64,000 nt of DNA, taken from NCBI RefSeq assembly GCF_001983935.1, contig NZ_CP017641.1, positions 5,427,001 through 5,491,000 on the forward strand, in the 5' to 3' direction. Positions 6,295 through 51,268 of the stretch are shown here, in pieces (positions within the stretch are counted from its first letter, which is position 1; every line of letters begins with the position of its first letter). The stretch comes from Fuerstiella marisgermanici. GTDB taxonomy: Bacteria; Planctomycetota; Planctomycetia; Planctomycetales; Planctomycetaceae. The notes under the pieces were generated by a model. The model searched no databases. It had not been told where the DNA came from and saw nothing but the letters and a program-made list of their open reading frames with translations. Made by a program: the position numbers and the translations under genes.

Positions 6295-9200
6295 ATGCTG
6301 ATCTCAACATGGCTCCAGTCGTTCCGTAGTCGACTTCAATCCTCGCCTCGGCGGCCAAACCGTCGCACCCCCGAGCAGGCGGCAACAAGCCTCGAGCACC
6401 TGGAATCTCGCCACCTGCTAGCGGCTCCTCAGCTGATTGACGTTCAGGACGAAGCCAATCGAGTGATTGCCGAGGATTCGGAAATCAACTACTCCCCCAG
6501 CGCGTTTACGCTGGACTTTAGCACTGCACCAGACCTTGATCCGGGAACGATTGGAACGTCGTTTACGCTGGAACGAGCCGGGCAGGATGGCGCGTTCGAC
6601 GGCAACGACGTCATCATTCCGCTCACGTTTGTCGGTGTAGGTTCAGATGTCAACGAAGTGCTGCTGCAGTTAAGTCAGCCGCTTCCGAGCGACCTGTATC
6701 GAATTAACATCTCTGGCGCATTGGCCAACTCAGGTGGCGAAGCTTTCAATGGCGGAGTAGGCGACACCTTCGATTTCTCCATTCAATTGCCGCCGCCAAG
6801 TGTTGTTGCTGTACGTCCCAACGTGGGTGAATTTCTGCAACCTGGCGAGACTCGGCATATTGCACCCAACGAATTGACCCTGCAGTTTAATCCCGGGCAG
6901 GTGATTGATCCGCTGACGATCAACACCGGCACGGTGCGAGTTGAACGCGCCGGTCACGACGGTTCCTTCGGAGACGGCAATGAAGAATTCGTGGACATCG
7001 GCTTCGTAGGGATTGGCGACGTACCCGAAGAAGTCGTCGTTCGATTTGCAGAAAACCTGCCGGACGACGATTACCGCATTTTGCTCGACGGTTCGAGTGC
7101 CACTCCGATCCGCAGCATTGTTGGCGAAACACTGAACAACGGTGCCGACACGACATTTGAGTTTTCACTGGATCTGGGAGCTCGGATTATTGCGGTCGAT
7201 CCGCAACCCGTGACGCGCGATGGAAGCGGCGTGATTAGTCAAGCGCGTGACCAAATCGTGTTGTACTTCAACGACGACGACATGCCCGCCGCAGTGGCTC
7301 AGGACGTGCAGTTCTATCAGTTGATTTTCACCAACGATACGATTTCAAATCTTGACGACAACGACCTGGACAACAATCCAGCCACCGGGCCACAAATCAT
7401 CAACCCGCAGTCTGTGGTTTACGATGCGGCCACCGATACCGCAACGTTGTTGTTCTCTCAGGACATTCATCTGTTGGCGGGGGCGGGCACGTATCGCCTG
7501 CGCGTGGGCACCAACGAAGCCATCCCGCTGACTCCTGTACAGAACACGTTCAATGCGATTCAGGACCCCGGCGACAGCTTCGACTCGTCGTCACTTGTCA
7601 GCTTGGGAGATCTTGCAAACAGCGCAAACAAGAGCCACGTAATCTCTTCCGCCATTGAAGCGCAGCCATACCCATTTGATTATCCCGGTGGCATTGATGA
7701 GCCGGGACATCGTGATATTGAAATCGAAACCCATTTGAATGGCGGCCCCGACAGCCAAGCCGGAACGTCGCAGATTAACTACAATTTTCAGGACGTTTAC
7801 GGCTTTGATCCGGCTGGTCAAATCCTGCTGAACACGATCACAGAAGCGCAGAAACAGCGGGCTCGGGAAGTCTTCGAATACTACAGCACGGTCACTGGAA
7901 TTGACGTTCAGGAAACACTGAATAGTGGCTTGACGATTGCTACAGGCGACTTGCGAGCTCTTGACCCATTGGTGCCGACCGGTCCGGGCGGCGTGACGGG
8001 GATCGCAGGCGGGGGCGTGGCGATCATGGATCAGGCGGAAGTCTGGGATGATTCTCCTGGCGCGAGCTGGTTTCAGACGGCAATGCACGAAATCGGACAT
8101 TTGCTGAGCATCGGCCACGCGTCGGACCTTTCGCCAGTAACCGTCAATGCAGGCGACGGATTTGGTAACACCAACCCTGGCGCATTCAATGGCTTTGCAG
8201 AACCTGTTTTCCCGGGCGATAATGACCTTGTGCACCTGCAGTATCTGCACCGTCCGGACAGTATCGACATCGACCTTTACGAATTCGAGGTCACAGAACC
8301 CGGACAATTCACGGCCGAGGTCATGGCGGAACGACTGGCAGATGCCAGCCAGCTGGATTCGCACATTCGATTGTTCCGTGAGAACGCTGACGGCTCTCGT
8401 GAAGCGATTGCTCAAAACGACGACTACTTCAGTGAAGATTCGTATTTGGAATTAAATCTGGATGTAGGTAAGTATTTCATTGGCGTTTCGTCGACCGGCA
8501 ACGATTCCTACGACCCGGCCGTTCCCGGTACTGGTGCTGAAGGGACTTCGCAAGGCAAATACGATCTGCGACTGAACTTCCGACCAAGCATCACTGGCAC
8601 GGGAAATATTCTTCAGGACACGGATGGCACGGCCTTCGACGGCGACAGTGATGGCGTTGCAGGCGGCGTCTATAACTTCTGGTTCCGAGCAACTGCGCCT
8701 GGCGACACACTGCTGGTCGATAAAGAAGCTGCAGACAAAGACGTTGCTGGTCGAGCGAATAATGGCTCGGAAGCCTCACCGTTTCTGGAAATCGATCAGG
8801 CCCTGGCAGCCGCCACTCCGGGCCAGATCGTCCGCATCGTGGGCAACGGCGGTGCTGACAACGACATCACCACGATTGAAGACAACACGCCGTATCAAAT
8901 CGGCACCAACACCTCCAATCAGCCTCTGATTGACGGTAGTACGTTGTCCGTGCCTCAGGGCGTGACGGTGATGATCGATGCAGGAGCCATGCTTAAGCTG
9001 CGTGCTTCGCGAATTGGTGTGGGAAGTTCGACGGCAGGTTCGGACCGATCCGCAGGTGCACTACAGATTCTTGGCACGCCCGGAAACGATGTCGTCTTTA
9101 CGTCGTGGCTGGACGAAACGGTCGGCACGGATACGACCCCGATACCGACCAGTGCGATCCCTGGAAACTGGGGCGGGATCGTTTTCCGTAATGATGTTGA

Positions 9201-31798: not shown

Positions 31799-34788
31799 AT
31801 GCCTTCACACGTCGAGAACGATTCACATGATGAGTCTGAATCTCAAAGCGGGTCCTGGCGGCGGCAGCTCTCCATCCTGGGTGGCGCATCGCTGCTGTTG
31901 ATTAGCTGCCTTGTATGGTCCTCCCGCGGATCAGCACCGTCCAACGAAACACTGGTCGGCGCTGAAGCTGCCGTGGCGACAGGTGACATCCGAACTGCAG
32001 AACAACTGTCGCAGGAAATCCTGCGACAGTATCCGCTCAATAGTCGTGCCCGGCTGGTATATGCCAAGTGCCTGCAGGCACGGAATCGTCCTGAAGAAGC
32101 AATCGAATTGTTACGGGATATTGCGATCGCAGAGTCGCCTCAATCGGCCGAAGCCGCCCGGCTGGCAGGCGACATCCTCTTTCTGACACTCTACCGTCCG
32201 TCCGAAGCGAACGATCAATACAGGCAGGCACTCAAGTGCGATCCGGCATCAGTGGAAGCGAACGATCGCCTTTCCGTACTGCTGGCTGTCACCGGACAAT
32301 GGTGGGAACACATTCCCGTGCGGCTCGCGACGCTGCGAGAAGGGCGATTTAACGCGATGGATCTGCTGGTCCTCGCGCTGGCGGACAAAGCGCTCTTAAA
32401 TCCGGAACTTGCAGAGCAGATGGCAAGAGTCTCGCCGGACGATCCGTTCGTTCTGTTGGCAAATGCGCGGTTGGCCATCGAAGACGAACAACACGACGCG
32501 GCTATCAGGCTGCTCACGCGAGCCGTCGCTCAGAACAACGATCTTGTTCAGGCTCAAGTGATGCTGGGTACGGCGTACTTTGAACAGAGAGACGAGATTC
32601 GATTTGCAGACTGGCTGCGCGAACTTCCGCTATCTGCCGACGAACATCCGAGTATCTGGACTCTTCGCGGAAAATGGGCTCTGCACCGAGAGGAGCCGGA
32701 GACTGCACTACGCTGTTTCTGCGAGGCGGTTCAACGAGATCCCAATCATTCGGACGCAATGTATCAGGCTGGCCGAATTCTGGAATCAATGGACCGCAGC
32801 GCAGACGCTGCTCCATTTTTTCAAAGAGCGTCGCGGTTGCAGGAATTTAGCAATGCCGTAAAAACCGCCGACAGTGAGGACGCTCTTGCGGAAATCCGCC
32901 GCACAGCGGAGCTGGCAGAATCGCTGGGAAACTTCTGGGAAGCATGGGCCTGGGCCACAATCGCCGCATCGCACCAAAGCCGCCCCGCGTGGGCTTATGA
33001 AATCGCATCACGTCTGACGCCTCTGCGGTCTACGCTGCGACTCCAAAGAACTCTTGCGAAACACAACCCTGTAAATTCGTTCGATTACAAAAACCTGCCT
33101 TTGATTGAAACAATCGATCAGACGACAGAAACGAACGCTACAGAATCGCCCCGGATTTCAAACGAGCAATTTGTTTTTCGCGATCGAGCCGCTTCGGCGG
33201 GCATCGACTTTCAGTATTTCAATGGTTCGCACGATGTTGCCGAAGGCGTGCGGCACATGTACGAAGTCATGGGAGGCGGCGTTTCTGTACTGGACTTCAA
33301 TGGCGACAACCGGCCCGATATTTTTCTGACGCAAGGTAGTCGCTGGCCCATTAAAGAATCGAATCATGAATTTCTCGACCGTTTGTATCTGCACGCCGGT
33401 GACGGCCACTTCGTTGATGTCACCCAGAATTGCGGCATTGTTGAAAGCGGGTTCAGCCAGGGAACAACGGTGGGAGATTTCGATTCCGACGGATTCCCCG
33501 ACCTTCTGGTCGCTAACATTGGCCGCAACCGTTTGTTCCGCAACAACGGCGACGGCACGTTTCGTGACATGAGTCAAGAAGTCCGCTTCAATGATGATGC
33601 CTGGTCCACAAGCTGCGCTATCGCTGACATGACGGGGGACGGACACCCGGAAATTTTCGTCGTGAATTATCTTGCTGGTAAAGACGTCTTTACACGAACC
33701 TGTGGGCCACAACTCGACCGGGTTTGCCTGCCCCAGCATTTCCCAGCCGCCACCGATCAACTGCTATGGAACCTCGGCAACGAGCAGTTTCAGGACGTTA
33801 CCCATTCGTCCGGCATCACTGTGGACAACGGCAAAGGATTGGGCATTGTGGTTGGCTCATTCGGCGACGGCCCCGGTTTGGACGTCTTTGTCGGCAATGA
33901 CACGGTGTCCAATTTCTACTTCAAAAACCAGGGTAATGATTCCAACAACGCACCCCGTTTCCAGGAAACGGCAATGGTCTCAGGGCTGGCCGTCAATGGC
34001 CGCGGGACCGCTCAGGCATGCATGGGTATCGCGGCCGGCGATGCCGATGGAGATGGCGCGACTGATCTGTTTGTCACCAACTTTCACGGCGAATCCAATA
34101 CGCTGTATCGTCAACTGGGCGGTGGCGTTTTTGAGGACAGCACGCTGCGTAACCGACTGCGTCAGCCAAGCCTTTCGAAACTGGGTTTTGGTACTCAGTT
34201 TCTGGACGCGGATCTCGACGGGCGGCTCGACTTGGTCGTCGCCAATGGGCACATCGACAATAACAGCGACGATGGTCGGACCGATTATCAAATGCGGCCT
34301 CAGTTTTTCGTCAACCAGGGATCCGCGGGGTTCCTCGAAGTCAGCCCACAGACACTGGGGCCGTATTTTGAAAATAAGGTTCTGGGGAGAGCATTAGCGC
34401 GAGCCGATTGGAATTGCGACGGTCAACCGGACTTCGTCGTGACTCACCTTGATGCACCCGTTTCTCTCATGGAGAACATGACGCGGCCGAGCGGTAACTT
34501 TGTCGTGATTGACCTGCACGGAGTGCGCTCCAGCCGCGATGCGATAGGTACTATGGTGCAGGTCGAAACAGCAAATCGAACTCTGACTCAACAACTTACG
34601 GCGGGGGACGGATTCCAGGCCAGTAATCAACGAGTGCTGATGTTCGGTTTGGGTGAAGACAAAGCAATTCGAAAGTTGACCGTCCGCTGGCCATCCGCCC
34701 AACGAAATGAATATCGAGAACTGCCTGTTAACACCCGCCTGTCAATCGTCGAAGGTCGGCAGACGGTGTTCGACGTGCCGCACGAAAG

Positions 34789-34792
<4 letters not shown>
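31799..34792 (+). CDS. CRTAC1-type protein: TPR, FG-GAP/VCBS repeats and ASPIC/UnbV domain
   Basis: This 997-residue protein has one N-terminal membrane segment (LSILGGASLLLISCLVW) and then a TPR region (about residues 55-400), with motifs such as SRARLVYAKCLQARNRPEEA. From about residue 500 come calcium-site repeats: DFNGDNRPDIFLTQG, DFDSDGFPDLLVANIG, DADGDGATDLFVTNF, DADLDGRLDLVVANGH. These build an integrin-like beta-propeller. The C-terminus (about 914-985, SSRDAIGTMVQVE, then LTAGDGFQASNQRVLMFGLG) is the ASPIC/UnbV domain. It should sit outside the cytoplasm, anchored by the N-terminal helix. Binding partner and role are unknown. It overlaps the next gene, a paralogue of nearly equal length, by four bases. 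Confidence 0.9.
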
Positions 34793-37773
<2,981 letters not shown>

Positions 37774-37966: not shown

Positions 37967-38440
37967 ATGCGGGCTCAACAGAATTCGACATCCGCGCCTG
38001 CTGCTGCGCCAAAGATGTCATTACGGAGTCCTCGCCGAACGATGCAGATTCAATCGCCCACTCCCGTCTCCCGCATATACTCCATAGACAAAATGCACCC
38101 GGCTGCAGGCAGCCGCGCGGCCCCATTGAAGTGTTGCAACGGACAATTCAAAAATGGCGTCGCAAAACGGGACCAGTTTCGATCTGACTACGACCAGCTC
38201 GTCACTCAACTTAGTCCGCGAGAACGTGAGGTATATCAGTTGTTGCTGCAGGGGCATGAAAGTAAGCAGATTGCGTTGCTGTTGAGCATCAGTCCCAGCA
38301 CTGCAGAAAAACATCGCCTGGCGGTTGTGCGGAAAATGCAGACCGAGAACGTGGTGCAGCTTCTGATTCAGAAGTTCGAAGCCACCGGCACCTTGTGCGA
38401 CTATGCCAACGTCAGCACGCCGCAGACGAAAGCCGCTTGA
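37967..38440 (+). CDS. LuxR/FixJ-type helix-turn-helix protein without a receiver domain
   Basis: The 157-residue protein carries a clear LuxR-type DNA-binding domain (about residues 80-140): LSPREREVYQLLLQGHESKQ, then IALLLSISPSTAEKHRLAVV. The first 75 residues are basic and low in structure (PAAAPKMSLRSPRRTMQ) and do not resemble a response-regulator receiver, so either this is a HTH-only regulator or the true start is later, for example the Met near residue 43. AAGG precedes the ATG at 37967 at a long distance. A Thr-Ala-Glu-Lys-His recognition helix is usual for FixJ relatives. It stands alone between the CRTAC1 pair and the export-like operon, and could control either; nothing shows which. 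Confidence 0.7.
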   Translation: MRAQQNSTSAPAAAPKMSLRSPRRTMQIQSPTPVSRIYSIDKMHPAAGSRAAPLKCCNGQFKNGVAKRDQFRSDYDQLVTQLSPREREVYQLLLQGHESKQIALLLSISPSTAEKHRLAVVRKMQTENVVQLLIQKFEATGTLCDYANVSTPQTKAA

Positions 38441-38898: not shown

Positions 38899-40893
38899 AT
38901 GATACGCCTGAGAACGTTTCGCAAGTTTCTTTCGACCACGTTCGCGACAGCCGCTCTGGCTGTACCGACGTTCGCGCAGGAAACTGTGCCGGAATTGCCC
39001 GAGCTTGGTGACGGTCCTGCCATCGCTGCCCCCGTCCACGCAGAAGGGCTCGGCCGGCCCCTTCAGTCGGTCGACCACGGAACGGCAACAGCACCGCTGC
39101 AGCAGGTTCCTCCAGAAGCGTGGTGGACCGAATCCGTCGCTCAACCGATGCGACCGGAACACCAGCAGGTGCAGATCGGTATCGAAGACCTTCTGGTACG
39201 ATCGTTGACCCATTCGTCGCAGGTGCGAGTCTTCAGTGAGCTGCCGTTGATTCGCGAAACGTCGATCATCGAAGCCGATGCAGCATTCGACTGGCACGCC
39301 TTCCTGGATACTCGCTGGGACGACATCAGCGACCCTGTCGGCAACACGCTGACGGTCGGCGGCGGCGGAACTCGTTTCCACGACCACAACCTGTCCGCAT
39401 CGGCAGGAGCTCGCAAGCGAACGCGCACCGGCGGACAACTGGAGCTGGCTCAGCGGTTCGGTTTTCAGGACACCAACTCCACCTTCTTTCAGCCCGACCC
39501 GCAAGGCACCTCGCGTCTGGTGCTCAGTTACACTCAGCCGTTAATGCGAGGCCGCGGCCAGGTCTATAACAACAGCCTGAAGGTGTTGGCTTCTCTGGAC
39601 ACCAATATTGCGAAGGAAGAGTTCAGCCGTCAGTTGCAGTCGCATTTGTTGGAAGTCGTGCGAGCGTACTGGGGCTTGTATCTGGAACGCGGCGTCTGTT
39701 TGCAGAAGGCACGAGCGTTCAACCGAGCCAAAGAAATTTACGATCGTCTACAGCGCCGCAGAGCAATCGACACCTTTGAAAGTCAGTTGATCAGCGCCGA
39801 AGCGGAATTGAAATCGCGTGGATCAGCACTGCGTCGTTCGGCCGCTGCTGTGCGAAACGCCGAAGACCGTATTCGAGCCCTCGTGAACGACCCCGGGCTG
39901 GGGCAAGGCGAATACGAATTGCTGCCAATTGACAGGCCCTCGGCCGCCGGGTTCCCGGTTTCTATGGACGAAGCTCTGTCGGCGGCGGTGCAGTGTCGGC
40001 CGGAAGTGAATCAGGCATTAAAGCAGATTCAGGCGGCGTGTGTGCGAGTCAACATGTCCAAGAATGAGATGATGCCCGTGCTGAATCTGGTGACGGAAAC
40101 CTACGTCAGCGGCCTTCGAGGGAACGGCAACGTCGGCGGCGCAATCAACGACCAGTTTGGAGTCGGCGAACCCAGCTACTCAATCGGTCTGCAGTTCGAA
40201 GTGCCAATCAATAACCGAGCTGCTCGAGCCCGCCACACACGACGCCATCTGGAAATGCGTCAACTTCAAAACCAGTACGAAACAACAATTCAGACGCTGA
40301 AGCTGGAAACACGTGTTGCGGTGCGAGAAGTCGAAACATCGTTCGATGAACTCGACACAAAGTTCAGCGCGATGCAGGCGATGGAAGCAAAATCAGATTA
40401 CATCCTGCGTCGTTGGGAACTGCTGCCTGGTGAAGCTCGGACCGGCAGTCAGGTGCTGGAAGATTTGCTGGCCGCACAATCCCAACTGATGCGAGCCGAG
40501 AACGAATATCTTACGTCGATGGTGACGTACAACTTGTCTCTGGTGAATCTTAAAAGAGCCACCGGAATGCTGCTGCAACACGAACAGGTGGCGATTGGGC
40601 GGACGTGCATCAACGGTCTGCCGACTCAGATAGTGGACAAGCCGTTCATGGAATTTACGCAGGCCGCGCCGCCAGCGACTGAGTTCCATCAACATCTGGA
40701 AGAACGAACCTTCCATCCCATGGAAAGTACTCAGCCAAGTCAGCCATCGGAACCTGCGACGGCGGAAGAGGTGACTCCGGAACCACCACCGGTCCCCACG
40801 CAACAGACGTCATTCGAACGATCGCAGTCATCCTCACAGAAGAAAGGTTCCGTGTTCGGAAGGATACTTCGGCGTTACAGCGAACCTCGCTGA
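38899..40893 (+). CDS. TolC-like outer membrane efflux protein
   Basis: The 664-residue protein has a signal peptide (cleavage likely after AVPTFA, residue 26). It shows the paired coiled-coil plan of outer-membrane efflux (OEP) channels, with SRQLQSHLLEVVRAYWGLYL, then AEAELKSRGSALRRSAAAVR in the first half, and ETRVAVREVETSFDELDTKF with AENEYLTSMVTYNLSLVNLK in the second. TolC homologues form a trimeric channel across the outer membrane and periplasm for type I secretion or efflux. The C-terminal 70 residues are Pro/Glu/Gln/Ser-rich, longer than usual. The last residues (RRYSEPR) and stop are encoded by a 105-bp interspersed repeat in reverse orientation. It is the first gene of the export-like group; 159 bases separate it from the SecA-like gene. 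Confidence 0.9.
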   Translation: MIRLRTFRKFLSTTFATAALAVPTFAQETVPELPELGDGPAIAAPVHAEGLGRPLQSVDHGTATAPLQQVPPEAWWTESVAQPMRPEHQQVQIGIEDLLVRSLTHSSQVRVFSELPLIRETSIIEADAAFDWHAFLDTRWDDISDPVGNTLTVGGGGTRFHDHNLSASAGARKRTRTGGQLELAQRFGFQDTNSTFFQPDPQGTSRLVLSYTQPLMRGRGQVYNNSLKVLASLDTNIAKEEFSRQLQSHLLEVVRAYWGLYLERGVCLQKARAFNRAKEIYDRLQRRRAIDTFESQLISAEAELKSRGSALRRSAAAVRNAEDRIRALVNDPGLGQGEYELLPIDRPSAAGFPVSMDEALSAAVQCRPEVNQALKQIQAACVRVNMSKNEMMPVLNLVTETYVSGLRGNGNVGGAINDQFGVGEPSYSIGLQFEVPINNRAARARHTRRHLEMRQLQNQYETTIQTLKLETRVAVREVETSFDELDTKFSAMQAMEAKSDYILRRWELLPGEARTGSQVLEDLLAAQSQLMRAENEYLTSMVTYNLSLVNLKRATGMLLQHEQVAIGRTCINGLPTQIVDKPFMEFTQAAPPATEFHQHLEERTFHPMESTQPSQPSEPATAEEVTPEPPPVPTQQTSFERSQSSSQKKGSVFGRILRRYSEPR

Positions 40894-40979
40894 CTTGTGG
40901 CCGAGGAGCAAACTTTTCGGACGATGAGGGCTGTTTCCCACGAGCCCGCCCCCTTCACAACATAAGGGAAACTGCTCCA
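40875..40979 (-). repeat. 105-bp interspersed repeat, copy R1 (reverse)
   Basis: On the minus strand this reads TGGAGCAGTTTCCC, then GGGCTCGTGGGAAACAGCC, then CTCGGCCACAAGTCAGCG, and ends in the hairpin CAGCGA-GGT-TCGCTG. It aligns without gaps over 105 columns with copies at 48650, 50921 and 61767. It covers the stop and last codons of the TolC-like gene and part of the gap before the SecA-like gene. In this copy GTTTCCC and GGGAAAC can also pair. Confidence 0.85.
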
Positions 40980-41052
40980 GCAAATCCGGCTCACCCAACC
41001 CTGCGGTTTTCTGCGACTTCGTGACCTCTGATTTCATTTCGCGAATCTGTTT

Positions 41053-42978
41053 ATGCTCTCCAGACTCTTCGCCAACTCCCAACGCCTGTCCAGCCGCTGT
41101 GCCCCACAGCGGACTCGGTCGTTGATTGACGTCGGCGACATCCGCGCCCGAGCAACGCAACTTCAGGCGTTGACCGACCGGCAACTCACGGCGCGTTCTC
41201 TTGAACTCCGCGACGCACCCGCAGATAAGACTGAAACTTTTGCGCTGGCTACCGAAGCGGTCCGCCGCGCAACTGGTCGCACATACTACGACGTGCAACT
41301 GCAGGCAGGCCGAGTTCTCGCGGATGGCGATCTGGCCGAAATGCAGACGGGCGAAGGCAAGACTCTGGTCACTCTACTGCCCGTCTACGACGCCGTTGTG
41401 CAAGGTCACAACGTGCATGTCGCCACGACCAACAGCTATCTGGCGGAACGTGATTGTGCCGAACTGAAACCGGCATTCGAACTGCTCGGTGTTAGCATCA
41501 GTCTGCTGCCCGAAGAAAATTGTGATACGGCCAAACAAGCGGCTTATCAATGCGACGTCACTTACGGAACCGGCTATGAATTTGGTTTCGATTACCTGCG
41601 CGATCAACTCACTTTAAGGCAGCAACCACAGGATGCTCTGGGCGATGCATGGATAAGATCGTTATCCAACACTCCACGATCCTCGCCGCAGCTTGTGCAG
41701 TCAGCACGGCGTGTCACTATTATTGATGAAATCGACAGTGTCCTGATCGATGAAGCCAACACACCGCTGGTGATCAGCTTCTTCGCTTTCGACAGGCCTG
41801 ACATCGAACCATATCGGCTGGCCGCCGCAGCGGCGGACACGTTGACTGACGGTGTGGACTACGCCATCGACGTCACCGCCAAACAGGTTACGATCTCGCA
41901 AAATGGCAGCCAGCACATCGCCGCATTGAAACCGGCCAACGTGACGTTGCAGCGGCCGTGGCGTATCTACGTCGAACATGCACTGCGAGCTCGCTACCTG
42001 CTTCAGCGCGACGTGGACTATGTGGTGCAGGGCGGAAAGGTGGCTCTGGTTGACCAGCACACCGGTCGCATCTTCCCGGATCGCAAGCTGCGAGACGGCC
42101 TGCACCAGGCGATCGAATTCATTGAAGCTGCAGAGTTAACAGCAGAAACAAATTCCTTCGCCCGCATTTCCCGCCAACGCTTCTTTCAGCAATATGTCAG
42201 CGGCACAGGCATAACGGGGACAGCGACTGACGCGATCGACGAATTCCAACGCTTCTTCAGATTGAAAGTCGTACCGATTCCACTGAATCGGCCGTCACAA
42301 CGCGTGATGCTGCCGACCCGCTTTTTCGGCGATGCAAACGCGAAGTATGAAGCCATCGTCGCCGACGTGGTCACACGGCATCGCGTTGGGCAACCGATTT
42401 TGATCGGAACTCGCACGATCGAACAAAGCCGCCAGATTGCAGACATGCTGGCAGTGAAAGGCTTAACTCATCAACTGCTAAACGGCATGCAGGATGCCGA
42501 AGAGGCGGCCATTGTGGCTTTGGCCGGGCAACCCGCCGCGATCACCGTCGCTACGAACATGGCCGGCCGCGGCACCGACATCAAACTCACGCCGGCATCC
42601 CGAGACGCGGGCGGCCTGCATGTGATCGCGGCCGAACCGAACCGCAGTCATCGAGTCGACCGGCAACTGATTGGCCGAGCGGCGCGGCAGGGCGATCCCG
42701 GTTCGTGTCAGGTGTTTGTGTCGGCCGACGACGATCTGCTGAAGACGATGGGGCGATCTTTAATTCGCAAAATCAGTGGCACAGCCGGTCGTGGCGGTGA
42801 AGCAGAACTAAACGCGGAACAGGAGCTACGCAACATTCAACGCCAGGCGGAGTATGTCGACTTCATGCAACGTCAGCAGCTGATGCAGCAGGATCTGTGG
42901 GCGGAAGACGTATTGCAAACACTGGTGGGGCAGGGCGTTGAAAAACAGGCGAGCAACAGAATGGAGACAGTACTATGA
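41053..42978 (+). CDS. Short SecA-like preprotein translocase ATPase
   Basis: The 641-residue protein is clearly SecA-related. It has Walker A MQTGEGKT (97-104), VATTNSYLAERD, YGTGYEFGFDYLRDQL, the Walker B/DEAD region DEIDSVLIDEANTPLVIS, a short preprotein cross-linking domain (ALRARYLLQRDVDYVV, then DQHTGRIFPDRK, GITGTATD) and the second motor domain ATNMAGRGTDIKL plus GRAARQGDPGS. After that only about 60 residues remain, so the helical scaffold, wing and C-terminal zinc tail of a normal 800-900 residue SecA are missing. Some motif residues differ (EAN for EAR, GRAAR for GRSGR). It overlaps the HlyD-like gene by four bases (ATGA). It is probably a dedicated motor for an exporter, not the housekeeping SecA. 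Confidence 0.9.
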   Translation: MLSRLFANSQRLSSRCAPQRTRSLIDVGDIRARATQLQALTDRQLTARSLELRDAPADKTETFALATEAVRRATGRTYYDVQLQAGRVLADGDLAEMQTGEGKTLVTLLPVYDAVVQGHNVHVATTNSYLAERDCAELKPAFELLGVSISLLPEENCDTAKQAAYQCDVTYGTGYEFGFDYLRDQLTLRQQPQDALGDAWIRSLSNTPRSSPQLVQSARRVTIIDEIDSVLIDEANTPLVISFFAFDRPDIEPYRLAAAAADTLTDGVDYAIDVTAKQVTISQNGSQHIAALKPANVTLQRPWRIYVEHALRARYLLQRDVDYVVQGGKVALVDQHTGRIFPDRKLRDGLHQAIEFIEAAELTAETNSFARISRQRFFQQYVSGTGITGTATDAIDEFQRFFRLKVVPIPLNRPSQRVMLPTRFFGDANAKYEAIVADVVTRHRVGQPILIGTRTIEQSRQIADMLAVKGLTHQLLNGMQDAEEAAIVALAGQPAAITVATNMAGRGTDIKLTPASRDAGGLHVIAAEPNRSHRVDRQLIGRAARQGDPGSCQVFVSADDDLLKTMGRSLIRKISGTAGRGGEAELNAEQELRNIQRQAEYVDFMQRQQLMQQDLWAEDVLQTLVGQGVEKQASNRMETVL

Positions 42979-43865
42979 AATCGAAATATTTTCGACGCTG
43001 CCTGAAGAGCCTGCCCACGATCATTATTGCGATCACGTCAACCACCGCACACGCAACCGACATCATTGGCTTTACCGAACCGGTCAAGACCATTGAACTG
43101 GCCGCGTCCGAGACTGGCATTCTGGCGACGTTGCACGTCAAACGAAACGACACGGTGAAGGCTGGGCAGACCGTCGCGGCACTGGATACCCAAGTCCTGC
43201 AGACTCGCCGAGCGTTGGCGGAAGCTCGCGCCAAATCGACGGCCCGCCTGAAGGCTGCAACAATCAAAGTCGCGCGAGCCGAGCACAACCTTCAGCAACT
43301 GCAGCAGCTTCGCGAAGAAGGGCACGGCGGCAAACGAGAATTAGAACTGGCCGCGTCGGACCTTGAGCTCGCTCGCGCCGACTTAGAAGCCGTCGAAGAT
43401 GAAGAACTGCTAAGCCGGCTGGACATCCAACGCATCGACGCGGAAATTCGCCGCCGCACCGTCGTCAGTCCGATGGACGGCATCGTCACTGAGGTGCATC
43501 GGGAAGTGGGCGAATTCGTAGCGACGACACAGCCGACCGTGCTCACTATTGCCAATCTCACCCAGCTACGCATCCGCTTTTATCCTTCGACTGACGTCGC
43601 CGAACCATTGCGAACAGGCGACCCGATTGCCGTAACACTGTTGCATACCGGGGCAGACCTAAAAGCGACGATCGACTTCATCTCGCCTGTGATCGACGCG
43701 GACAGCAACACCGTTCAGGTCGACGTACTGCTGGACAACCGCCACGGAAAACTGCGGAGTGGCCGACGATGTGCATTGCTCGCCGCCCCTTGGCGAAGTC
43801 ATCCAGTCCCAGCAAGGCAGGCCGCTATGCCTGAACATCTCAGCAACGCAACAGGAGCGCGTTAA
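42975..43865 (+). CDS. HlyD/RND-type periplasmic adaptor protein
   Basis: The 296-residue protein has a cleavable signal (TSTTAHA, residue 27). It shows the adaptor plan: a first half-lipoyl segment (SETGILATLHVKRNDTVKAG), an alpha-helical hairpin of about 80 residues rich in Ala/Glu/Leu (ARAEHNLQQLQQLREEGHGG), a second half-lipoyl segment (VVSPMDGIVTEVHREVGEF) and a beta-barrel (LRIRFYPSTDVAEPLRTGDP). Such proteins connect an inner-membrane pump to a TolC channel. The ATG at 42975 overlaps the stop of the SecA-like gene, and its own stop overlaps the next start by one base, so the genes are read as one unit. With no transmembrane anchor it should be free or lightly attached in the periplasm. 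Confidence 0.9.
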   Translation: MKSKYFRRCLKSLPTIIIAITSTTAHATDIIGFTEPVKTIELAASETGILATLHVKRNDTVKAGQTVAALDTQVLQTRRALAEARAKSTARLKAATIKVARAEHNLQQLQQLREEGHGGKRELELAASDLELARADLEAVEDEELLSRLDIQRIDAEIRRRTVVSPMDGIVTEVHREVGEFVATTQPTVLTIANLTQLRIRFYPSTDVAEPLRTGDPIAVTLLHTGADLKATIDFISPVIDADSNTVQVDVLLDNRHGKLRSGRRCALLAAPWRSHPVPARQAAMPEHLSNATGAR

Positions 43866-45736
43866 TGAGTCGCCTTCGCACCGCCGCGCCCCGGCAACGC
43901 ATCCACGCCGCCGACGGTCCAGCCGCTGCTTCGGATTCGGCCGTCCAGCAATTGGCCGCCATCATGCGAGCCGCGAAATCTCGCGACGCACTTTACGCTG
44001 CGGTGGCGAAGTGGCTCAGTCAACGTCCGAGGTTCGCAGCCGTCGGCTTCTTCACCGCTGGTGAAAACGCAACTCTGGATTTTGGACCGCATACCTTTGA
44101 CGGCCCAGCCTTCGACAGCGACGCGTTTCTAACCAACGCCATCGCGACCGCCGAACAGGCTCAACAATCGCGATTGACCGTCACCACTAACGCAGCAAAC
44201 ATCCGCAACGTTACGCTGATCAGTGTGCCGCTAACTTCGTCCAATGCAAACCCGCCCCTCGATCAACCCATTGCTGCTGATGTGCTCACTGCGGCCATCG
44301 TCACTTCACCGGACGAACGTGCCGACGACAGTCTTCTGCAACTTGCCGCCGCCAACATTGGAATGTGGCATAGCGACCACCGAAACACGGAACTTCAGCG
44401 ACAACTAAGATCAACCGCCGCAACTCTGGACTTGCTGGCGACCATTGAAACGGCCGACAACTTCCGTAGCGGCTGCATGGCACTGGTGAACACTCTGAAC
44501 CAGCATTTGCGGTGTCGCGGATTTGTTCTGGCGATCAGAAAACGCGGCCGCGATCATCGCCTGAAGGTAGAAGCGGTGGCGGGAATGGCGAACGTCGACT
44601 CGAGGTCGTCACTGACCAGCAGCCTGATAGATGCGCTACATGAATGCGTGGACCGAGCGACGCTGTCGACCTTCCCGGCTGACGACCATGAGGACCGCAC
44701 TGCATTGCTGGCTCACCGAAAACTGTGTGGCGAACTGCAGGCGACAAAACTGATCAGTCATCCACTTAAGACGACTGACAATCAGGTCGTCGGTGCGTGG
44801 ATGGCGGTGTACGACAGCACAGACATTCCGGCTGACGCAGACACGCTATTGCGAGTGGCCAGTCCTCGAATCGCGGACGCTCTACGCCTGTCACAACAAG
44901 CCAGCGCAACGTTCTTCCGGCAGCCAGCAAATAAGGCTCGTTGGCGCTGGCTGAAGCGATTCACTGTCGCGTCAACGCTGGCGGCGGCGGTCCTGGCCGT
45001 TCCTGTCCAATATCGCGTTCACTGCGACTGTGCGGCTGAACCGGACGTGCGGCGGTTCATCGTGGCTCCCCATGAAGGCCTTATCGAAAAGACGTTCGTG
45101 CAGTCCGGCGACGTGGTCACAGCAGGGCAGCTGCTGGCCGCAATGGACGGACGCGATGTACGCTGGGAACTCGCGGGGCTGGCTGCAGAACGCGAAAAAG
45201 CGGCCAAAGAACACGACTCCAGCCTGCTGCAAGGTGACGCCGCGGCGGCTCAACGAGCCACCCTGGAACTCCGCCGCATCGCTGCTCGCGAGCACGTCCT
45301 GCAGCGCCGCAAAGTTCAACTGCAAGTGACATCGCCGGTAAACGGCATCGTTCTGGACGGGCACCTGGACCGAGTCGAAAACGCTCCCGTGACGATCGGG
45401 CAGGCGTTGTACGAAGTGGCTGAGTTGTCGCCCGTCACGGTGGAGGTAGCCATTCCAGATGATGAATTCAGCAACGTCGCGGCCGGCTTTGAAGTGAGCG
45501 TGAAGTTCAACGGCATCGACGAGACATTCACCGGGACCATTGAACGCATCCACCCTCGAAGTGAGATCCGCGACGCTGACAATGTGTTCATCGCTGAGGT
45601 CGTGTTAAGCAACGCGTCGGAACAACTTCGACCGGGGATGAAGGGCTACGCACGCGTCGAAGGCGAAACTCATTCGCTGGCGTGGAATCTGTTTCACAAA
45701 CCGTGGGAGCATTTAAGGAAGTCGCTTCCGTTTTGA
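43865..45736 (+). CDS. GAF-like domain fused to a HlyD-type adaptor
   Basis: The 623-residue protein has a cytoplasmic N-terminal half (residues about 20-340) with a GAF-like segment (NFRSGCMALVNTLNQHLRCR, then FVLAIRKRGRDHRLKVEAVA). A single membrane segment follows at about 365-383 (TVASTLAAAVLAVPVQY). Next comes a HlyD-type adaptor: RRFIVAPHEGLIEKTFVQSG, a helical hairpin, VTSPVNGIVLDGHLDRVEN and a beta-barrel (VEVAIPDDEFSNVAAGFEVS). HlyD proteins link inner and outer membrane in export systems; the GAF-like part could sense a small molecule in the cytoplasm. This domain pairing is unusual. It starts at 43865, one base into the previous stop codon, and ends 178 bases before the proposed start of the M50 gene. 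Confidence 0.8.
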   Translation: MSRLRTAAPRQRIHAADGPAAASDSAVQQLAAIMRAAKSRDALYAAVAKWLSQRPRFAAVGFFTAGENATLDFGPHTFDGPAFDSDAFLTNAIATAEQAQQSRLTVTTNAANIRNVTLISVPLTSSNANPPLDQPIAADVLTAAIVTSPDERADDSLLQLAAANIGMWHSDHRNTELQRQLRSTAATLDLLATIETADNFRSGCMALVNTLNQHLRCRGFVLAIRKRGRDHRLKVEAVAGMANVDSRSSLTSSLIDALHECVDRATLSTFPADDHEDRTALLAHRKLCGELQATKLISHPLKTTDNQVVGAWMAVYDSTDIPADADTLLRVASPRIADALRLSQQASATFFRQPANKARWRWLKRFTVASTLAAAVLAVPVQYRVHCDCAAEPDVRRFIVAPHEGLIEKTFVQSGDVVTAGQLLAAMDGRDVRWELAGLAAEREKAAKEHDSSLLQGDAAAAQRATLELRRIAAREHVLQRRKVQLQVTSPVNGIVLDGHLDRVENAPVTIGQALYEVAELSPVTVEVAIPDDEFSNVAAGFEVSVKFNGIDETFTGTIERIHPRSEIRDADNVFIAEVVLSNASEQLRPGMKGYARVEGETHSLAWNLFHKPWEHLRKSLPF

Positions 45737-45914
45737 GAACGTGAATGGCGCCGCTGTCACAGACAGGCAACGATCTGCAACCTCCTGGCATTGTTCCATT
45801 TTGCGTCGATCCGAAGCCAACGGCTTGCGTCCGCCTTCTTTCGTGGTTGCATCACGCCGAAGTCCGGACGACTCAACGACCTCAGTTTTCAACCTGAGAA
45901 CCTTCGATTCCAAC

Positions 45915-48065
45915 ATGCACACGATCAACAATCACAGCTACGAACTCGGAGCCATTCGTCTCACACTGCGGCGTGATTTGACCGTGCGGCCGGAACGCTC
46001 CGGAGATACAGGTTGTTATCAGATCGAAGACGTGGCGAATTCGAAGTTCTTCCGCATTGGAACACCGGAGTACACGTTTCTTTCATTGCTGGACGGACAA
46101 ACATCCATTGCAAATGCGGTCGCTGAAACCGCAACCAAACTCGGGGGTGATGCGTTCACGGAAACTCAGGCCGCCGCGTTCTGTCGCTGGCTGGTAGACA
46201 ACTCCCTGGCCTCTACAAAGCAGTCAGCATCGGTAAATCGGTTGCAGGAACAAGCCGAACGAGACGCAAGCCGAAAGAAGCGTGAATGGCTTAACCCGTT
46301 GATGCTAAAGATTCCGCTGGGGCGACCTCAGTCCCTGCTGCGATCACTGTCCGGCGGAATGAACTGGTGCTTTAGCAGCGTCGGTGCTGGACTGTGGTTG
46401 GTGGTGGTGCTGCTGGGAGCGTACCGACTGTGGATGAACTTCGAACATTTCGGAAGTTCCGTATCATCGCTGGTCGCGGCGGATAACTGGGTATGGCTGG
46501 GACTGACGGCACTGTTGCTAAAGGTAATTCACGAGGCGGCTCATGGTCTGGCCTGCGACAGATTCGGCGGCGACACGCGGGAAGCTGGCATTTTGCTGCT
46601 ATTGTTCGTGCCGCTTCCCTATGTGGACGTAACTTCGGCGTGGCGTTTTGGATCGAAGTGGCAACGAGTCATCGTGTCGGCGGCGGGGATGTACGCCGAA
46701 TTCTTCATCGCGGCCGTCGCCGCAATTATTTGGACATCGACCAATTCTGCGATCATCCAGTTTCACGCCTGCAACGTGATTGTAACGGCCGGGTTTGTGA
46801 CGCTGCTGTTTAACATGAACCCGCTGATGAGGTTCGATGGCTACTACATTCTGACTGACGCGTTTGACCTGCCGAACCTGGCGACTCACGGCCAGCAGGA
46901 TACTATGTCGCTGGCTCGCCGCTGGCTGCTGGGCTTGCAAGAACAGCCACCGGAATGGCCGGAAGGTCGCCGACTGATCGTGCGCATGTACGGACTCGCG
47001 TCGCTTGTATGGAAGATACTGATTCTGGTCTCGCTAACATTGGCCGCCGCCGCGTTGTATCACGGGGCGGGCATCGTGCTGGCCGCCGTGGCATTGTGTT
47101 TGTGGTTACTGCTGCCAGCATTCAAGTTCGTGAAGTACATCATTCTTTCAGACCCGATCAATCCGCCGAACCGGCTTCGGTTTTCATTGATCACAGCATC
47201 TATGGCGGCGCTGACATTTGGTGTCTGGAATTACGTTCCATACGTGGAACGCATTCAGCTGGCGGCTACTGTCGACTACGCCCCGGTCATCACAGTGCGA
47301 GCCGCCACGTCGGGCTTTGTGCGAAAGATTCACGTCCGGCCAGGCGACAGCGTGACAACCGGTCAGTCATTGTTCACACTCGAGAACGTGGAACTAACGG
47401 CTCGAATTCAACAGTTGCAGCTTGCCGCAGAAACATCACGATTGGACACAACGAAGTATCATCGCGAGGGAAAGCTGGCCGCGTTTCAGATCGAGCAGGA
47501 GAATGCAGCAGCCGTGCAAAAACGGTTGAACGAATTGCAGGCTCAGGCGGATTCACTGACCGTTCGCGCCATTGACAATGGCACCGTTTTGAGTCGCCGC
47601 TTGTCCGACTTTGCGGATCGCTGGGTCACAGCGGGGACGGAGCTAATGCTGCTGGGCAACGACCAACAGCGGTCGGTGCGTTTTGTGGTCGCTCAATCCG
47701 ATATCGCGTCCATGCGAACCGCCTTGCACCAGCCAGCTCAGGTTCACATCTGGGGATCCACTTACAACGATCTCACGGGCGTGATTGCCGAAATTGAACC
47801 GCGAGGTTCGACTGCGCTGCGTTACCCGTCGCTGGCTGTGACGGCGGGCGGGCCGCTGGCGGTCAAGCAGGTGCCCAGCGGCGAATCGACGGACCAGCAA
47901 TGGCAACTGCTGGAGCCTCATTTTTCAGGCCGAATCAAGTTGAAGGAAGGCTCACTCAACGCATTCGGCACGGGACAAACCGGTGTTGTGGAACTTACCG
48001 CAAACCGGGGCTCGATGGGGCGAGTTCTGACATCATGGGTAGAAGGTAAGTTGCGCCGTGAGTAG
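45915..48065 (+). CDS. PqqD-like, M50 metalloprotease and HlyD-barrel membrane fusion
   Basis: The 716-residue protein (from the ATG at 45915) begins with a PqqD-like winged domain (LTVRPERSGDTGCYQIEDVA, FFRIGTPEYTFLSLLDG). It then has several membrane segments with the M50 motifs HEAAH at 206-210 (VIHEAAHGLACDRFGG) and FDGYY at 307-311 (NPLMRFDGYYILTDAFD), typical of site-2 protease-like enzymes. The C-terminal part is a HlyD adaptor (ITVRAATSGFVRKIHVRPGD, then VRFVVAQSDIASMRTAL). PqqD-like domains bind peptides in RiPP pathways; M50 enzymes cut in the membrane; together they suggest substrate recognition, processing and hand-over. The frame is open to a GTG at 45741, but residues before Met59 of that frame look non-coding. 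No strong ribosome binding site is seen before 45915, so the start is uncertain. Confidence 0.88.
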   Translation: MHTINNHSYELGAIRLTLRRDLTVRPERSGDTGCYQIEDVANSKFFRIGTPEYTFLSLLDGQTSIANAVAETATKLGGDAFTETQAAAFCRWLVDNSLASTKQSASVNRLQEQAERDASRKKREWLNPLMLKIPLGRPQSLLRSLSGGMNWCFSSVGAGLWLVVVLLGAYRLWMNFEHFGSSVSSLVAADNWVWLGLTALLLKVIHEAAHGLACDRFGGDTREAGILLLLFVPLPYVDVTSAWRFGSKWQRVIVSAAGMYAEFFIAAVAAIIWTSTNSAIIQFHACNVIVTAGFVTLLFNMNPLMRFDGYYILTDAFDLPNLATHGQQDTMSLARRWLLGLQEQPPEWPEGRRLIVRMYGLASLVWKILILVSLTLAAAALYHGAGIVLAAVALCLWLLLPAFKFVKYIILSDPINPPNRLRFSLITASMAALTFGVWNYVPYVERIQLAATVDYAPVITVRAATSGFVRKIHVRPGDSVTTGQSLFTLENVELTARIQQLQLAAETSRLDTTKYHREGKLAAFQIEQENAAAVQKRLNELQAQADSLTVRAIDNGTVLSRRLSDFADRWVTAGTELMLLGNDQQRSVRFVVAQSDIASMRTALHQPAQVHIWGSTYNDLTGVIAEIEPRGSTALRYPSLAVTAGGPLAVKQVPSGESTDQQWQLLEPHFSGRIKLKEGSLNAFGTGQTGVVELTANRGSMGRVLTSWVEGKLRRE

Positions 48066-48771: not shown

Positions 48772-49770
48772 TTAACGGCGGCGGCCACGAAGTCGGGCGA
48801 CCGCGTCTCGCAACCGGCTGCGAGACGCGTCCAGCAACACGGCCAGCACGATAACGCTGCCCGTGGTGACGTATTTGGCTCCTTCGCTGACGTTCATCTG
48901 GACCAGGCCGGATTGCAATACGGCGATGATCAACACACCGAAAAATGTGTTGATCATCGACCCTCGTCCGCCCATCAGACTGGTGCCACCGATCACGGCA
49001 GCCGCGATCGCCAGCAGTTCGAAACCAATCGCGGCATTCGGATCCACAACGCTGATGCGCGACGTTTCAATCACCCCGGCCGCCGCCGCTAACGCGCCGC
49101 TGACCACAAACGCGCCAATACGAATCCACTTGGTTTCGACACCGCTGTAGCGCACGACGGTTTCGTTAAACCCGATCGCCATGCTGTAGCGGCCGAATAC
49201 AGTGCGATGCAGCACGAACTGCGACACACCCACAGCAGCCAGCGCGAACAGAAACGCGGGCGAAACTCCCAGCGCGCCAATGCGTTCGCCGATGAACGCC
49301 ATGCCGGTGCCCCGAACGATGAACATTGATCGAGATTCTGTCAGCAGATAAGTCAGTCCTCGCGCCACCTGCAACACGCCGAGACTCACGATAAACGACG
49401 GAATCCCGGCCAGCACGCTAATACCGCCGCTGATCAGCCCGCAGATTCCCCCGACAACAATAGCCAGCGGAACGGCCATCCAAATCGACAGCTCGTGATT
49501 CACCATCAACACACCCAGCACGGCAGCACTGAACGCCAACACAGACCCAACGGCCAGGTCAATTCCACCGGTGATCAACACAAACGTCATGCCGACAGAC
49601 ACCAGCGTGAGTGCCGGAATCTGGTTCACGATCGCTTTAAGAGTCGGGACACTGAAGAAGTGATCCGTCTTCACCCCAAAGAACGCCACCAGCATCCCAA
49701 GAACGATCAGCAACCCAAGGTGCTCACCGATCAGAATGGATTTCAAATGACTTTTGTGAGGACGCAGCAT
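48772..49770 (-). CDS. ABC transporter permease, ribose/sugar (RbsC) type
   Basis: The 332-residue protein has eight or more membrane helices and family markers: VSVGMTFVLITGGIDLAVGS, then GIPSFIVSLGVLQVARGLTY, FGRYSMAIGFNETVVRYSGV and IGGTSLMGGRGSMINTFFGV. These match RbsC-like permeases of carbohydrate importers (CUT2 family). It lies 146 bases downstream of a matching binding-protein gene on the same strand. No ATPase (RbsA) gene is found in this window, although CUT2 operons usually have one, so the ATPase must be elsewhere or lost. The sugar is unknown. Its 3' end faces repeat copy R2. Confidence 0.9.
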   Translation of the reverse strand: MLRPHKSHLKSILIGEHLGLLIVLGMLVAFFGVKTDHFFSVPTLKAIVNQIPALTLVSVGMTFVLITGGIDLAVGSVLAFSAAVLGVLMVNHELSIWMAVPLAIVVGGICGLISGGISVLAGIPSFIVSLGVLQVARGLTYLLTESRSMFIVRGTGMAFIGERIGALGVSPAFLFALAAVGVSQFVLHRTVFGRYSMAIGFNETVVRYSGVETKWIRIGAFVVSGALAAAAGVIETSRISVVDPNAAIGFELLAIAAAVIGGTSLMGGRGSMINTFFGVLIIAVLQSGLVQMNVSEGAKYVTTGSVIVLAVLLDASRSRLRDAVARLRGRRR

Positions 49771-49916
49771 GCGGGTGAGCGTTCAGCAAGGACGCGGGAA
49801 GAAAACCAGTCGCAGGATAGGGGCGAGAAAGTACCGGTTGAATCAGGTAACGCCGCGATCATTATGGAATTCGCGTGAATTGCCAGTTGGCGTTCTCCTG
49901 ATGGAGCAACCCTGCC

Positions 49917-50891
49917 TCAAATCGAATCCGCTGTGATCAGATCGACCGGTGTTTCCTTGTCGCCCGGGGCCTTGCCGGTTTCGATGGCTTCCAGGGCGTA
50001 TTCGATGCCGAAGACGGCGAGCTGGTCGCCGTGCTGGTCGGCCGTGGCGAGGATTTCTCCGAGCTCAATTGCCTGACGCACGGCGGAGATGTTGTCGAAG
50101 CCGACGATCTTCACACCAGCCAGACGATCGGCTTCTTTGACCGCAGCAAGGGCTCCCAACGCCATGTTGTCGTTGCAGGCGAGAATCGCTTTCAGGTCCG
50201 GGTGAGCCGTCAGCATGCCCGCGGCCGTTTGGTTCGCGATGCTCATTTCCCACCTGGCCGATTGCGACGCGACCACTTCCAGCTTGGCGGCCGTCAGAGC
50301 TTCTTCGAAACCCAGCTTGCGTTGCTGGCCATTAAAGGAAGTTTGGATGCCTTCCAGAATCGCCACTTTGTCGCCTTCCTGCATTGCTGCGGCCAGATGT
50401 TCGCCCACTTTCTTTGCGCCCGCTTTGTTGTCCGGGCCGACGAAGGGAATGGTGGCATCGCTGGATTTGAGAACCTCTTCGTCCAGCTTGTTGTCGATGT
50501 TGACCACGACAATGCCAGCTTCCTGAGCTCGCATTAACACCGGAACCAGTGCCTTCGAATCCGCTGGCGCGATTACGATAGCGTCAACCTGCTGAGCGAT
50601 CATTTGTTCAACCAGTGACACCTGCCCACTGAGATCCGTTTCGTCCTTGATGCCGTTGACGATCAGTCCGTATTTGTCCGAATTCTGTTTTTGGTGCTCC
50701 TCAGCACCAGCGGCCATCGTGGCGAAGAACTCGTTGGCGAGCGACTTCATCACGATCGCGATGCGCGGCGCGTCGGACGATGTGGCGGAGGTGTTGGACG
50801 CCGTTGAGGCAGAGTCAGAATCGCCGCACCCGACGAAGATGGCCAGCAGTGCGGAGAAAACCAAAGTGGAACAGCCGCGAAAAACAGTCAT
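49917..50891 (-). CDS. Sugar ABC transporter substrate-binding lipoprotein (RbsB type)
   Basis: The 324-residue protein begins MTVFRGCSTLVFSALLAIFV with Cys21 in a lipobox-like IFVGC, so it is likely a lipoprotein, then a Ser/Thr linker. The mature protein is a periplasmic-binding-protein type I fold: PRIAIVMKSLANEFFATMAA, then GIKDETDLSGQVSLVEQMIA, DAIVIAPADSKALVPVL, VNIDNKLDEEVL and ILACNDNMALGALAAV. These fit ribose, galactose or inositol binders. The open frame continues to 51143, but the extra N-terminus is non-coding and overlaps repeat copy R3, so the ATG at 50891 is chosen. It pairs with the permease downstream. Substrate unknown. Confidence 0.9.
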   Translation of the reverse strand: MTVFRGCSTLVFSALLAIFVGCGDSDSASTASNTSATSSDAPRIAIVMKSLANEFFATMAAGAEEHQKQNSDKYGLIVNGIKDETDLSGQVSLVEQMIAQQVDAIVIAPADSKALVPVLMRAQEAGIVVVNIDNKLDEEVLKSSDATIPFVGPDNKAGAKKVGEHLAAAMQEGDKVAILEGIQTSFNGQQRKLGFEEALTAAKLEVVASQSARWEMSIANQTAAGMLTAHPDLKAILACNDNMALGALAAVKEADRLAGVKIVGFDNISAVRQAIELGEILATADQHGDQLAVFGIEYALEAIETGKAPGDKETPVDLITADSI

Positions 50892-50920
50892 AGGATTATT
50901 CGGTAGCAGGAATATTGTTT

Positions 50921-51025
50921 TAGAGCAGTTTACGTTTTGTTGTACATGGTTCTGGCTCGTGGGAACCGGCCCACGTAGAACAAAAAACGATTTCCGCGGC
51001 CACAAGTCAGCGGGAAACGCTGTAG
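50921..51025 (+). repeat. 105-bp interspersed repeat, copy R3
   Basis: It starts TAGAGCAGTTTACG and ends CAGCG-GGAAA-CGCTG-TAG, aligning without gaps with R1, R2 and R4. Unlike those, no gene ends at it; it lies 30 bases upstream of the binding-protein start codon, on the opposite strand sense. The promoter of that gene must therefore be inside or beyond the repeat. Confidence 0.85.
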
Positions 51026-51268
51026 ACCGGAACTCGTAATGTAACCGGACGGCACTTCTGACAACAGCACCCCGGACGATTTGACGCCCGCCAGGATTCC
51101 GTTCGACCGTGGCGAACGCAAAACAGCGGAAGTGCCACCCCAAGCGAGACTTGCAATCCGGAACTCAGAAAGAGCCGCTGGCGACGAATCGCCCGCCCGC
51201 GTAGGATTCCAGCCCGGCGGACTGACCGCGGGAGAGTCAGCCACAAAATATTCATCTACGAGCGAGCA

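Follow-up and report, generated by a model that had tools for sequence, protein, structure and literature searches.

A SecA-containing gene cluster of Fuerstiella marisgermanici as a candidate export module for giant proteins with an N-terminal LEPR leader

Which proteins are served by a gene cluster that encodes HlyD-type adaptors, a TolC-type channel, a membrane protease and a short SecA? The question is raised by a 64,000-nucleotide stretch of Fuerstiella marisgermanici (NZ_CP017641.1, positions 5,427,001-5,491,000 of the 8.92 Mb single-contig genome), hereafter called the window, in which genes for a TolC channel, a short SecA, a HlyD adaptor, a GAF/HlyD adaptor and a PqqD/M50/HlyD membrane protease-adaptor follow one another (Table 1). 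On the basis of sequence comparison, it is considered somewhat probable that the five genes form a tripartite exporter of a type-I-like kind, reserved for very long proteins with a LEPR leader. Of the new results, the association of this leader with the PqqD/M50/HlyD protein is the firmest. The part that varies least is the pair of GAF/HlyD and PqqD/M50/HlyD proteins together with a separate HlyD, to which a TolC channel is joined; SecA is usually present and TolC frequently, and neither is universal.

Secondary SecA_DEAD loci with HlyD, GAF/HlyD, M50/HlyD and sometimes OEP genes were described by Kamneva, Poudel and Ward in 2015 (PMC4452313). In the part of that paper cited here, the missing ATP-binding cassette (ABC) gene was noted, SecA was proposed as the ATPase of a type-I-like exporter with the M50 protein as the pore, and the wider role of the locus was left open (PMC4452313). 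Genes MexAM1_META1p2399-2402 of Methylobacterium extorquens AM1 are among the loci that it names. The window locus, in which a SecA_DEAD protein lacking SecA_SW is adjoined by HlyD, GAF/HlyD and M50/HlyD genes, belongs to this type, and both the locus and the idea of a SecA exporter are already published. The words LEPR, DUF3467, PqqD and giant are absent from the main text of PMC4452313. LEPR-XLL is mentioned in PMC10868602 and PMC9611531, in the passages concerned without connection to an exporter, and no paper linking LEPR giants to the 2015 locus was found among the open-licence full texts of PubMed Central (PMC). New here is a likely cargo, proteins with a LEPR leader. To our knowledge, no exit route has been assigned to this class of giants. 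Through this connection the question of the cargo becomes testable, since there are now a specific substrate, a short leader and a set of named components to work with; if true, it could show a SecA acting outside the ordinary Sec pathway.

Co-occurrence was determined in the same 148 planctomycete genomes throughout, each at least 90% complete. A homologue of the M50 protein was found in 43 genomes at E 1e-50, a threshold at which distant homologues outside the SecA module are also picked up. The LEPR-8K model matched 23 genomes at E 0.05; one locus was read per genome, 20 were kept as N-terminal, and G065, G087 and G095 were removed as internal or antisense. All 20 genomes with a confirmed leader were M50-positive, as compared with 43/148 overall (Fisher, P = 3.5e-13), and by family the leader occurred in 10 of 20 M50-positive and none of 35 M50-negative families (P = 6e-6). 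A count of LEPR proteins with and without the cluster had been proposed in the first-pass annotation, and it came out in favour of the link (leaders in 20/43 M50-positive and 0/105 M50-negative planctomycetes by LEPR-8K). Short SecA, assigned by frame length and neighbours, was present in 32/148 genomes, with matches listed down to about E 1e-70, so that diverged ones may be missed, as that of G022 was; G026 and G097 were not counted (canonical-like or truncated). It was found in 17 of the 20 LEPR-positive genomes and in all 12 with at least three LEPR-8K matches.

A home-made leader profile (A5), which was built partly from genomes later searched and of which only part of the matches were read, matched 35 genomes (31/43 M50-positive and 4/105 M50-negative). 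Sixteen of the 17 picked A5 loci fitted the reading pattern near the N-terminus, the 17th being that of G094, which was read separately. Among the four M50-negative genomes, two matches (G002 and G110) are false, G094 carries a real leader and G076 was left unread. Within one genus, the complete genome G018 has a distant M50 homologue and neither a short SecA nor an A5 match, and G099 and G124 have both, with four A5 matches each.

To look beyond the phylum, named genomes were scanned with the M50 alignment, and 80 loci were kept of 548 relatives. They span Planctomycetota, Verrucomicrobiota, several proteobacterial classes, Nitrospira and others, by which the recurrence of the module is upheld. 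Within the flanks, which often end at contig edges, GAF was found at 76 loci, SecA at 72, HlyD at 63, TolC at 26, DUF3467 at 17 and a LEPR leader at 13, with 0 for the reversed-motif control over the same loci. Five of the eight loci without a called SecA (L143, L149, L195, L201 and L217) end at most 800 bases past the M50 gene or inside it. A pump gene of the ABC or resistance-nodulation-division (RND) type as a consistent member of the cluster had been named beforehand as evidence against such an exporter; as to the ABC type, a motif test detected an ABC-like frame at just 2 of the 80 loci. For the LEPR-8K test (E 0.05), 50 of the 56 non-planctomycete loci were used, and a match was obtained in 41/50 module genomes versus 1/14 control genomes, with the longest open frame at 17,246 aa. 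A LEPR gene was linked to the module in 24 of these 41 genomes, 11 inside the locus and 13 on a contig taken from its equal size to be that of the module (one about 50-70 kb away). The contig test covered 53 LEPR matches in 30 genomes, with two matches of G157 left out, and neither L191 (a LEPR motif in a genome without LEPR-8K match) nor L156 (a planctomycete) is included in the 24.

For the Alphaproteobacteria, LEPR-8K was run at E 0.005 against 290 evenly sampled genomes, with the Methylobacterium genome G166 as the centre of the sample. Six genomes were matched; in three of them (G166, G454 and G479) the match was read as N-terminal, and these are all among the 23 M50-positive ones (P = 4e-4), and the close type of M50 is present in only G166 and G454 of these. 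Rows G236 and G332 were removed, and G232 (M50-positive) could not be confirmed. On alphaproteobacterial plasmids, 10 of 11 records have a giant LEPR gene next to the module or not far from it. The giants, with annotated or open lengths of 3,472 to 12,918 aa, start with a leader such as FEALEPRLLLSAD or MEALEPRFLLSADP. Nine records have the giant directly upstream of the module, with at most one or two small genes between; in M382 about 14 kb separate it from the GAF/HlyD gene, with the record start in between and both on one strand. The 11th record, from Rhizobium johnstonii, has its locus cut by the record start, so that the upstream side is unseen, and its SecA is split into two frames. The order GAF/HlyD followed by PqqD/M50/HlyD is constant, with SecA next in 10/11 records, DUF3467 in 6/11 and TolC in 2/11. 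Export of the giants by the module would explain most simply why HlyD, TolC, SecA and a leader-type protease are encoded as one unit together with a giant gene.

At locus L133 (NZ_CP123586.1), the annotated start of the 8148-aa gene is probably too far downstream, in-frame upstream codons encoding a LEPR leader. DUF3467 is a recurrent extra member (L123, L125, L127, L130, L132, L139; 17 of the 80 loci; twice in L231). Its candidacy as a SecB-like chaperone was dropped, since the model reached only 62.6 in the predicted local distance difference test (pLDDT), the best Foldseek match was PURA (E 0.32), and no SecB was among the Foldseek matches listed. The PDB sequence search with DUF3467 gave one match (E 0.51).

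The leader itself was characterized from 51 segments, chosen by a pattern requiring E/D and R, so that the conservation of these residues is by construction; one gene is counted twice (L069, L240) and one frame (L087) is doubtful. At the freer positions, L was found in 47 segments at position 4, P in 30 at 6, S in 35 at 11, A in 34 at 12 and D in 24 at 13. The stretch that precedes the leader is basic in most cases (net charge +3 in the median, from -4 to +14 overall). For the 12-residue hydrophobic maximum the median is 1.22 (range 0.36-2.29), as compared with 1.63 and 1.91 for the N-termini of TolC and HlyD, respectively, and therefore the majority of leaders, though not every one, appear weaker than a Sec core.

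From these features, an order of events may be proposed. The client would begin with a usually basic stretch, followed by a leader of the type LExLEPRxLLSA, which would be bound by the PqqD-like domain and then cleaved at the intact M50 site, perhaps after LLSA. The short SecA might feed or pull the chain at the inner membrane, via the housekeeping SecYEG or the M50 protein, and the HlyD parts and TolC would, judging from their folds, carry it outside. It is tentatively suggested that this amounts to a separate leader-dependent exporter, in which recognition and cleavage of the LEPR leader fall to PqqD/M50/HlyD and the ABC pump is replaced by a reduced SecA. With the same reserve, such an exporter may extend over many phyla, serve proteins among the longest in bacteria and include SecA-less and ATPase-dead variants as further forms.

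The catalytic residues of the protease part are conserved. The motifs HExxH and NxNPL..FDG are invariant in 34/34 aligned PqqD/M50/HlyD sequences; in a separate alignment of 17 M50 sequences, HExxH and NxNPL...D are invariant, with G replaced by A in one sequence (L100). The model of the window protein from 45915 on has a mean pLDDT of 82.9, and in it both motifs fall in helices of the hydrophobic part and the C-terminal adaptor domain is MacA/AcrA-like. Alignment and predicted structure together thus place HExxH and NxxPxxxxDG in membrane helices, as in a site-2 protease. The protein scores 22.6 bits with Pfam M50 (cut-off 27.2) and 178.9 bits with the daptide protease model NF041824 (curated cut-off 300), and no daptide connection was found in open-licence PMC full texts.

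Several observations weigh against a dedicated, SecA-driven exporter. No confirmed LEPR-8K leader was found in 23/43 M50-positive planctomycetes or in 20/23 M50-positive alphaproteobacteria, and 9/50 module genomes outside the phylum have no LEPR-8K match; most matches in the 41 positive genomes were unread for their place in the protein, and that of G182 is weak (E 0.0115). G094 (L328, G094:C203; 91% complete, 6% contamination) carries a genuine LEPR leader at an N-terminus, and no module was detected in it; a LEPR gene was present in 1/9 arbitrary control regions. Canonical SecA is the only SecA of the LEPR-positive genomes G101, G107 and G136, a Thalassospira plasmid locus is without SecA, and nine distant alphaproteobacterial loci (L274-L282) with M50 and GAF/HlyD, mostly also HlyD, have no SecA in the stretch read. 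SecA-like proteins at L182:12170-14095, L211:12212-14119 and L231:11156-13108, in otherwise normal modules, appear ATPase-dead: matches to the Walker A and DExD-box patterns and to those of two other helicase motifs are missing, and the losses are seen in the alignment for L211 and L231. In the family of the window, the M50 gene lies within about 10 kb in only 3/19 other fetched short-SecA loci. Scattering of the genes in relatives, which had been set down as evidence against the cluster, is thus real in this family and is not general, the M50 gene being within the same distance in 17/21 short-SecA loci of other planctomycete families. Likewise, when the short SecA is compared with the M50 gene, the two go together at the level of the genome (an M50 homologue somewhere in all 32 short-SecA genomes) and are often not adjacent in the window's family.

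Near three of the nine SecA-less loci (L274, L277 and L280) there are genes with related leaders of the form LEPRF[MV][LF]DGAA (LEPRFMLDGAA) or PLEKRLMLDA.

The role of the short SecA is the point on which the alternatives differ most. The same clients could be moved by the housekeeping SecA-SecYEG, with PqqD/M50/GAF/HlyD being essential and the short SecA acting as a targeting, unfolding or scaffold factor; we regard this as unlikely, although it is the best of the alternatives. It is favoured by the modules without SecA, the ATPase-dead copies, the single SecY of this genome and the absence of the canonical wing/scaffold domain from the short SecA. Against it, SecA was called at 72/80 loci, Walker A is kept in 113/118 SecA-like open reading frames (ORFs) of 560-900 aa (a few canonical-like ones included), and in two of the three genomes with a dead copy (those of L182 and L211, not L231) an intact-looking short SecA of 663 or 642 aa is encoded elsewhere. 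The first-pass proposal that the SecA-like ATPase may drive the export is kept as regards a usual member of the module and weakened as regards a sole motor.

Rather improbable is a second alternative, in which the role of the module is to mature, check or anchor LEPR proteins, and another route, e.g. a separate type I system, takes them out of the cell. The intact M50 motifs, the GAF domain, the occurrence of TolC in the flanks of only 26/80 loci and a Vibrio LEPR giant that, in the part of PMC10868602 concerned, also has C-terminal RTX domains are consistent with it, whereas several HlyD adaptors with SecA, and at times TolC, in one unit suggest transport, and ABC-like frames occur at only 2/80 loci. 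An ordinary efflux or small-peptide exporter, with the LEPR link arising from shared ancestry or genome size, is very improbable, because the resemblance of the HlyD domains to RND/MacA adaptors and of the M50 part to the daptide protease model (below cut-off) is opposed by the family-level contrast (10/20 versus 0/35) and by the repeated adjacency on plasmids and across several phyla. Export of LEPR giants by the module is thus preferred, and the original exporter interpretation is partly supported: recurrence, near-absence of ABC genes and LEPR companionship speak for it, whereas SecA as the sole motor, direct passage of the chain through HlyD/TolC and trimming of the leader are its weaker parts.

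In the window itself, the giant LEPR protein is a plausible client. Its leader is a variant of the LEPR-8K motif; no match to NF012209 was obtained with its first 5000 aa (curated cut-off 17 bits; unlisted at E 10). The 3' end of the giant ORF lies 13,443 bp before tolC. The first-pass suggestion that the giant is a possible client is borne out in so far as LEPR proteins are genetic companions of the module; its nearness is weak evidence because LEPR genes are scattered across this genome, and as a proof it was abandoned once a LEPR gene had turned up in an arbitrarily chosen region of this genome as well. G144, which has the nearest relative of the window module and is rich in LEPR genes, shows an arrangement similar to that of the window, with two such genes at distances of about 12 and 17 kb from tolC. 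The giant also holds fibronectin/Ig-like repeats, GEVED, a hydrophobic stretch followed by an Arg-rich C-terminal tail, and the sequence HEIGHLLSIGH, a weak Matrixin match (19.5 bits, cut-off 24).

Table 1. Features of the giant gene and the five-gene cluster in the window
Feature	Length or residues	Position (strand)	Basis
Giant LEPR-leader protein, likely client	6386 aa	6295..25455 (+)	Co-occurrence and linkage elsewhere
Leader motif LEHLESRHLLAA	Residues 33-44 of giant	6391..6426 (+)	Translation
TolC/OEP outer-membrane channel	664 aa	38899..40893 (+)	Pfam OEP, E 4.8e-24
Short (secondary) SecA	641 aa	41053..42978 (+)	Pfam; PDB SecA/SecA2 matches
Walker A TGEGKT of short SecA		41347..41364 (+)	Translation
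HlyD-family periplasmic adaptor	296 aa	42975..43865 (+)	TIGR01730, 124.5 bits (cut-off 94.9)
GAF/HlyD adaptor	623 aa	43865..45736 (+)	HlyD_D23, E 6.3e-18; GAF label from homologue L185
PqqD/M50/HlyD membrane protease-adaptor		45741..48065 (+)	Pfam, NCBIfam, alignments, structure model
M50 catalytic motif HEAAH		46530..46544 (+)	Translation
Second M50 motif NMNPLMRFDG		46812..46841 (+)	Translation

The five plus-strand ORFs of the initial description were confirmed with the ORF list, Pfam and NCBIfam, and, as it had stated, no ABC or RND pump was found among the five proteins by Pfam and NCBIfam. The SecA/HlyD and HlyD/GAF pairs overlap, and the spacings are 4 bp between the GAF and M50 genes and 159 bp between tolC and SecA. 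The TolC protein is above the Pfam OEP cut-off and below that of TIGR01844 (79.8 versus 225.15 bits). The short SecA, with PDB SecA/SecA2 matches up to E 2.6e-114, consists by Pfam of SecA_DEAD, the preprotein cross-linking domain (PP_bind) and a partial P-loop domain; its ATPase motifs are intact by alignment and motif patterns, and SecA_SW (wing/scaffold) is missing from it and present in the canonical SecA of the same genome. Neither GAF nor PqqD was reported in the window proteins by Pfam at E 0.001; the labels come from homologues (GAF PF01590 and PqqD PF05402 in locus L185), and 'PqqD family' is also the NCBI product name of the plasmid homologues. Alignment with homologues suggests that the true start of the PqqD/M50/HlyD protein is near 45915. 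The next genes, at 48772-51143 (-), resemble by eye a sugar ABC permease and a substrate-binding protein, which we take to be an importer. Upstream, two tandem proteins of about 1000 aa each with TPR, FG-GAP and ASPIC/UnbV overlap by 4 bp (31799-37773), and a LuxR-type helix-turn-helix protein (37967-38440) lies between them and tolC.

The genome has four SecA_DEAD genes, i.e. the canonical one, that of the window, one adjacent to a TolC gene and one near a transposase-like gene. The second TolC and short SecA pair (L007:11570-16934; SecA 46% and TolC 37% identical to the window pair) has no HlyD, GAF or M50 beside it, nor does any of these adjoin the fourth SecA_DEAD gene. Six PqqD/M50/HlyD homologues (E 1e-50) and a single SecY match were found. 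LEPR-8K at E 10 gave 15 places, of which 13 were read as N-terminal leaders and two (L021 and L022) were unconvincing, and A5 gave nine matches at E 0.01, including the window giant by construction.

As to known systems, the description of the 2015 locus (PMC4452313), in the part cited here, mentions neither a substrate nor versions that lack SecA or have an ATPase-dead one; versions of both kinds were found here. The LEPR-8K / LEPR-XLL family (NF012209) is defined by LExLExRxLL near the N-terminus of long proteins, to which the giant is similar, although it falls below the model. With accessory SecA2 systems the window genome shares a second SecA ATPase, and four NCBIfam SecA2 models match the short SecA, all below cut-off (500.6/1085, 428.6/930, 398.4/725 and 383.7/1100 bits); unlike in accessory SecA2/SecY2 systems, there is no second SecY in the genome, and the short SecA is without the wing/scaffold domain and has HlyD/TolC partners. 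Peptidase-containing ABC exporters resemble the module in tying a protease to an N-terminal leader. With type I secretion (ABC-HlyD-TolC), the cluster has HlyD adaptors and a TolC-type channel in common, but in place of the ABC transporter it contains a SecA-type ATPase and an M50 membrane protease.

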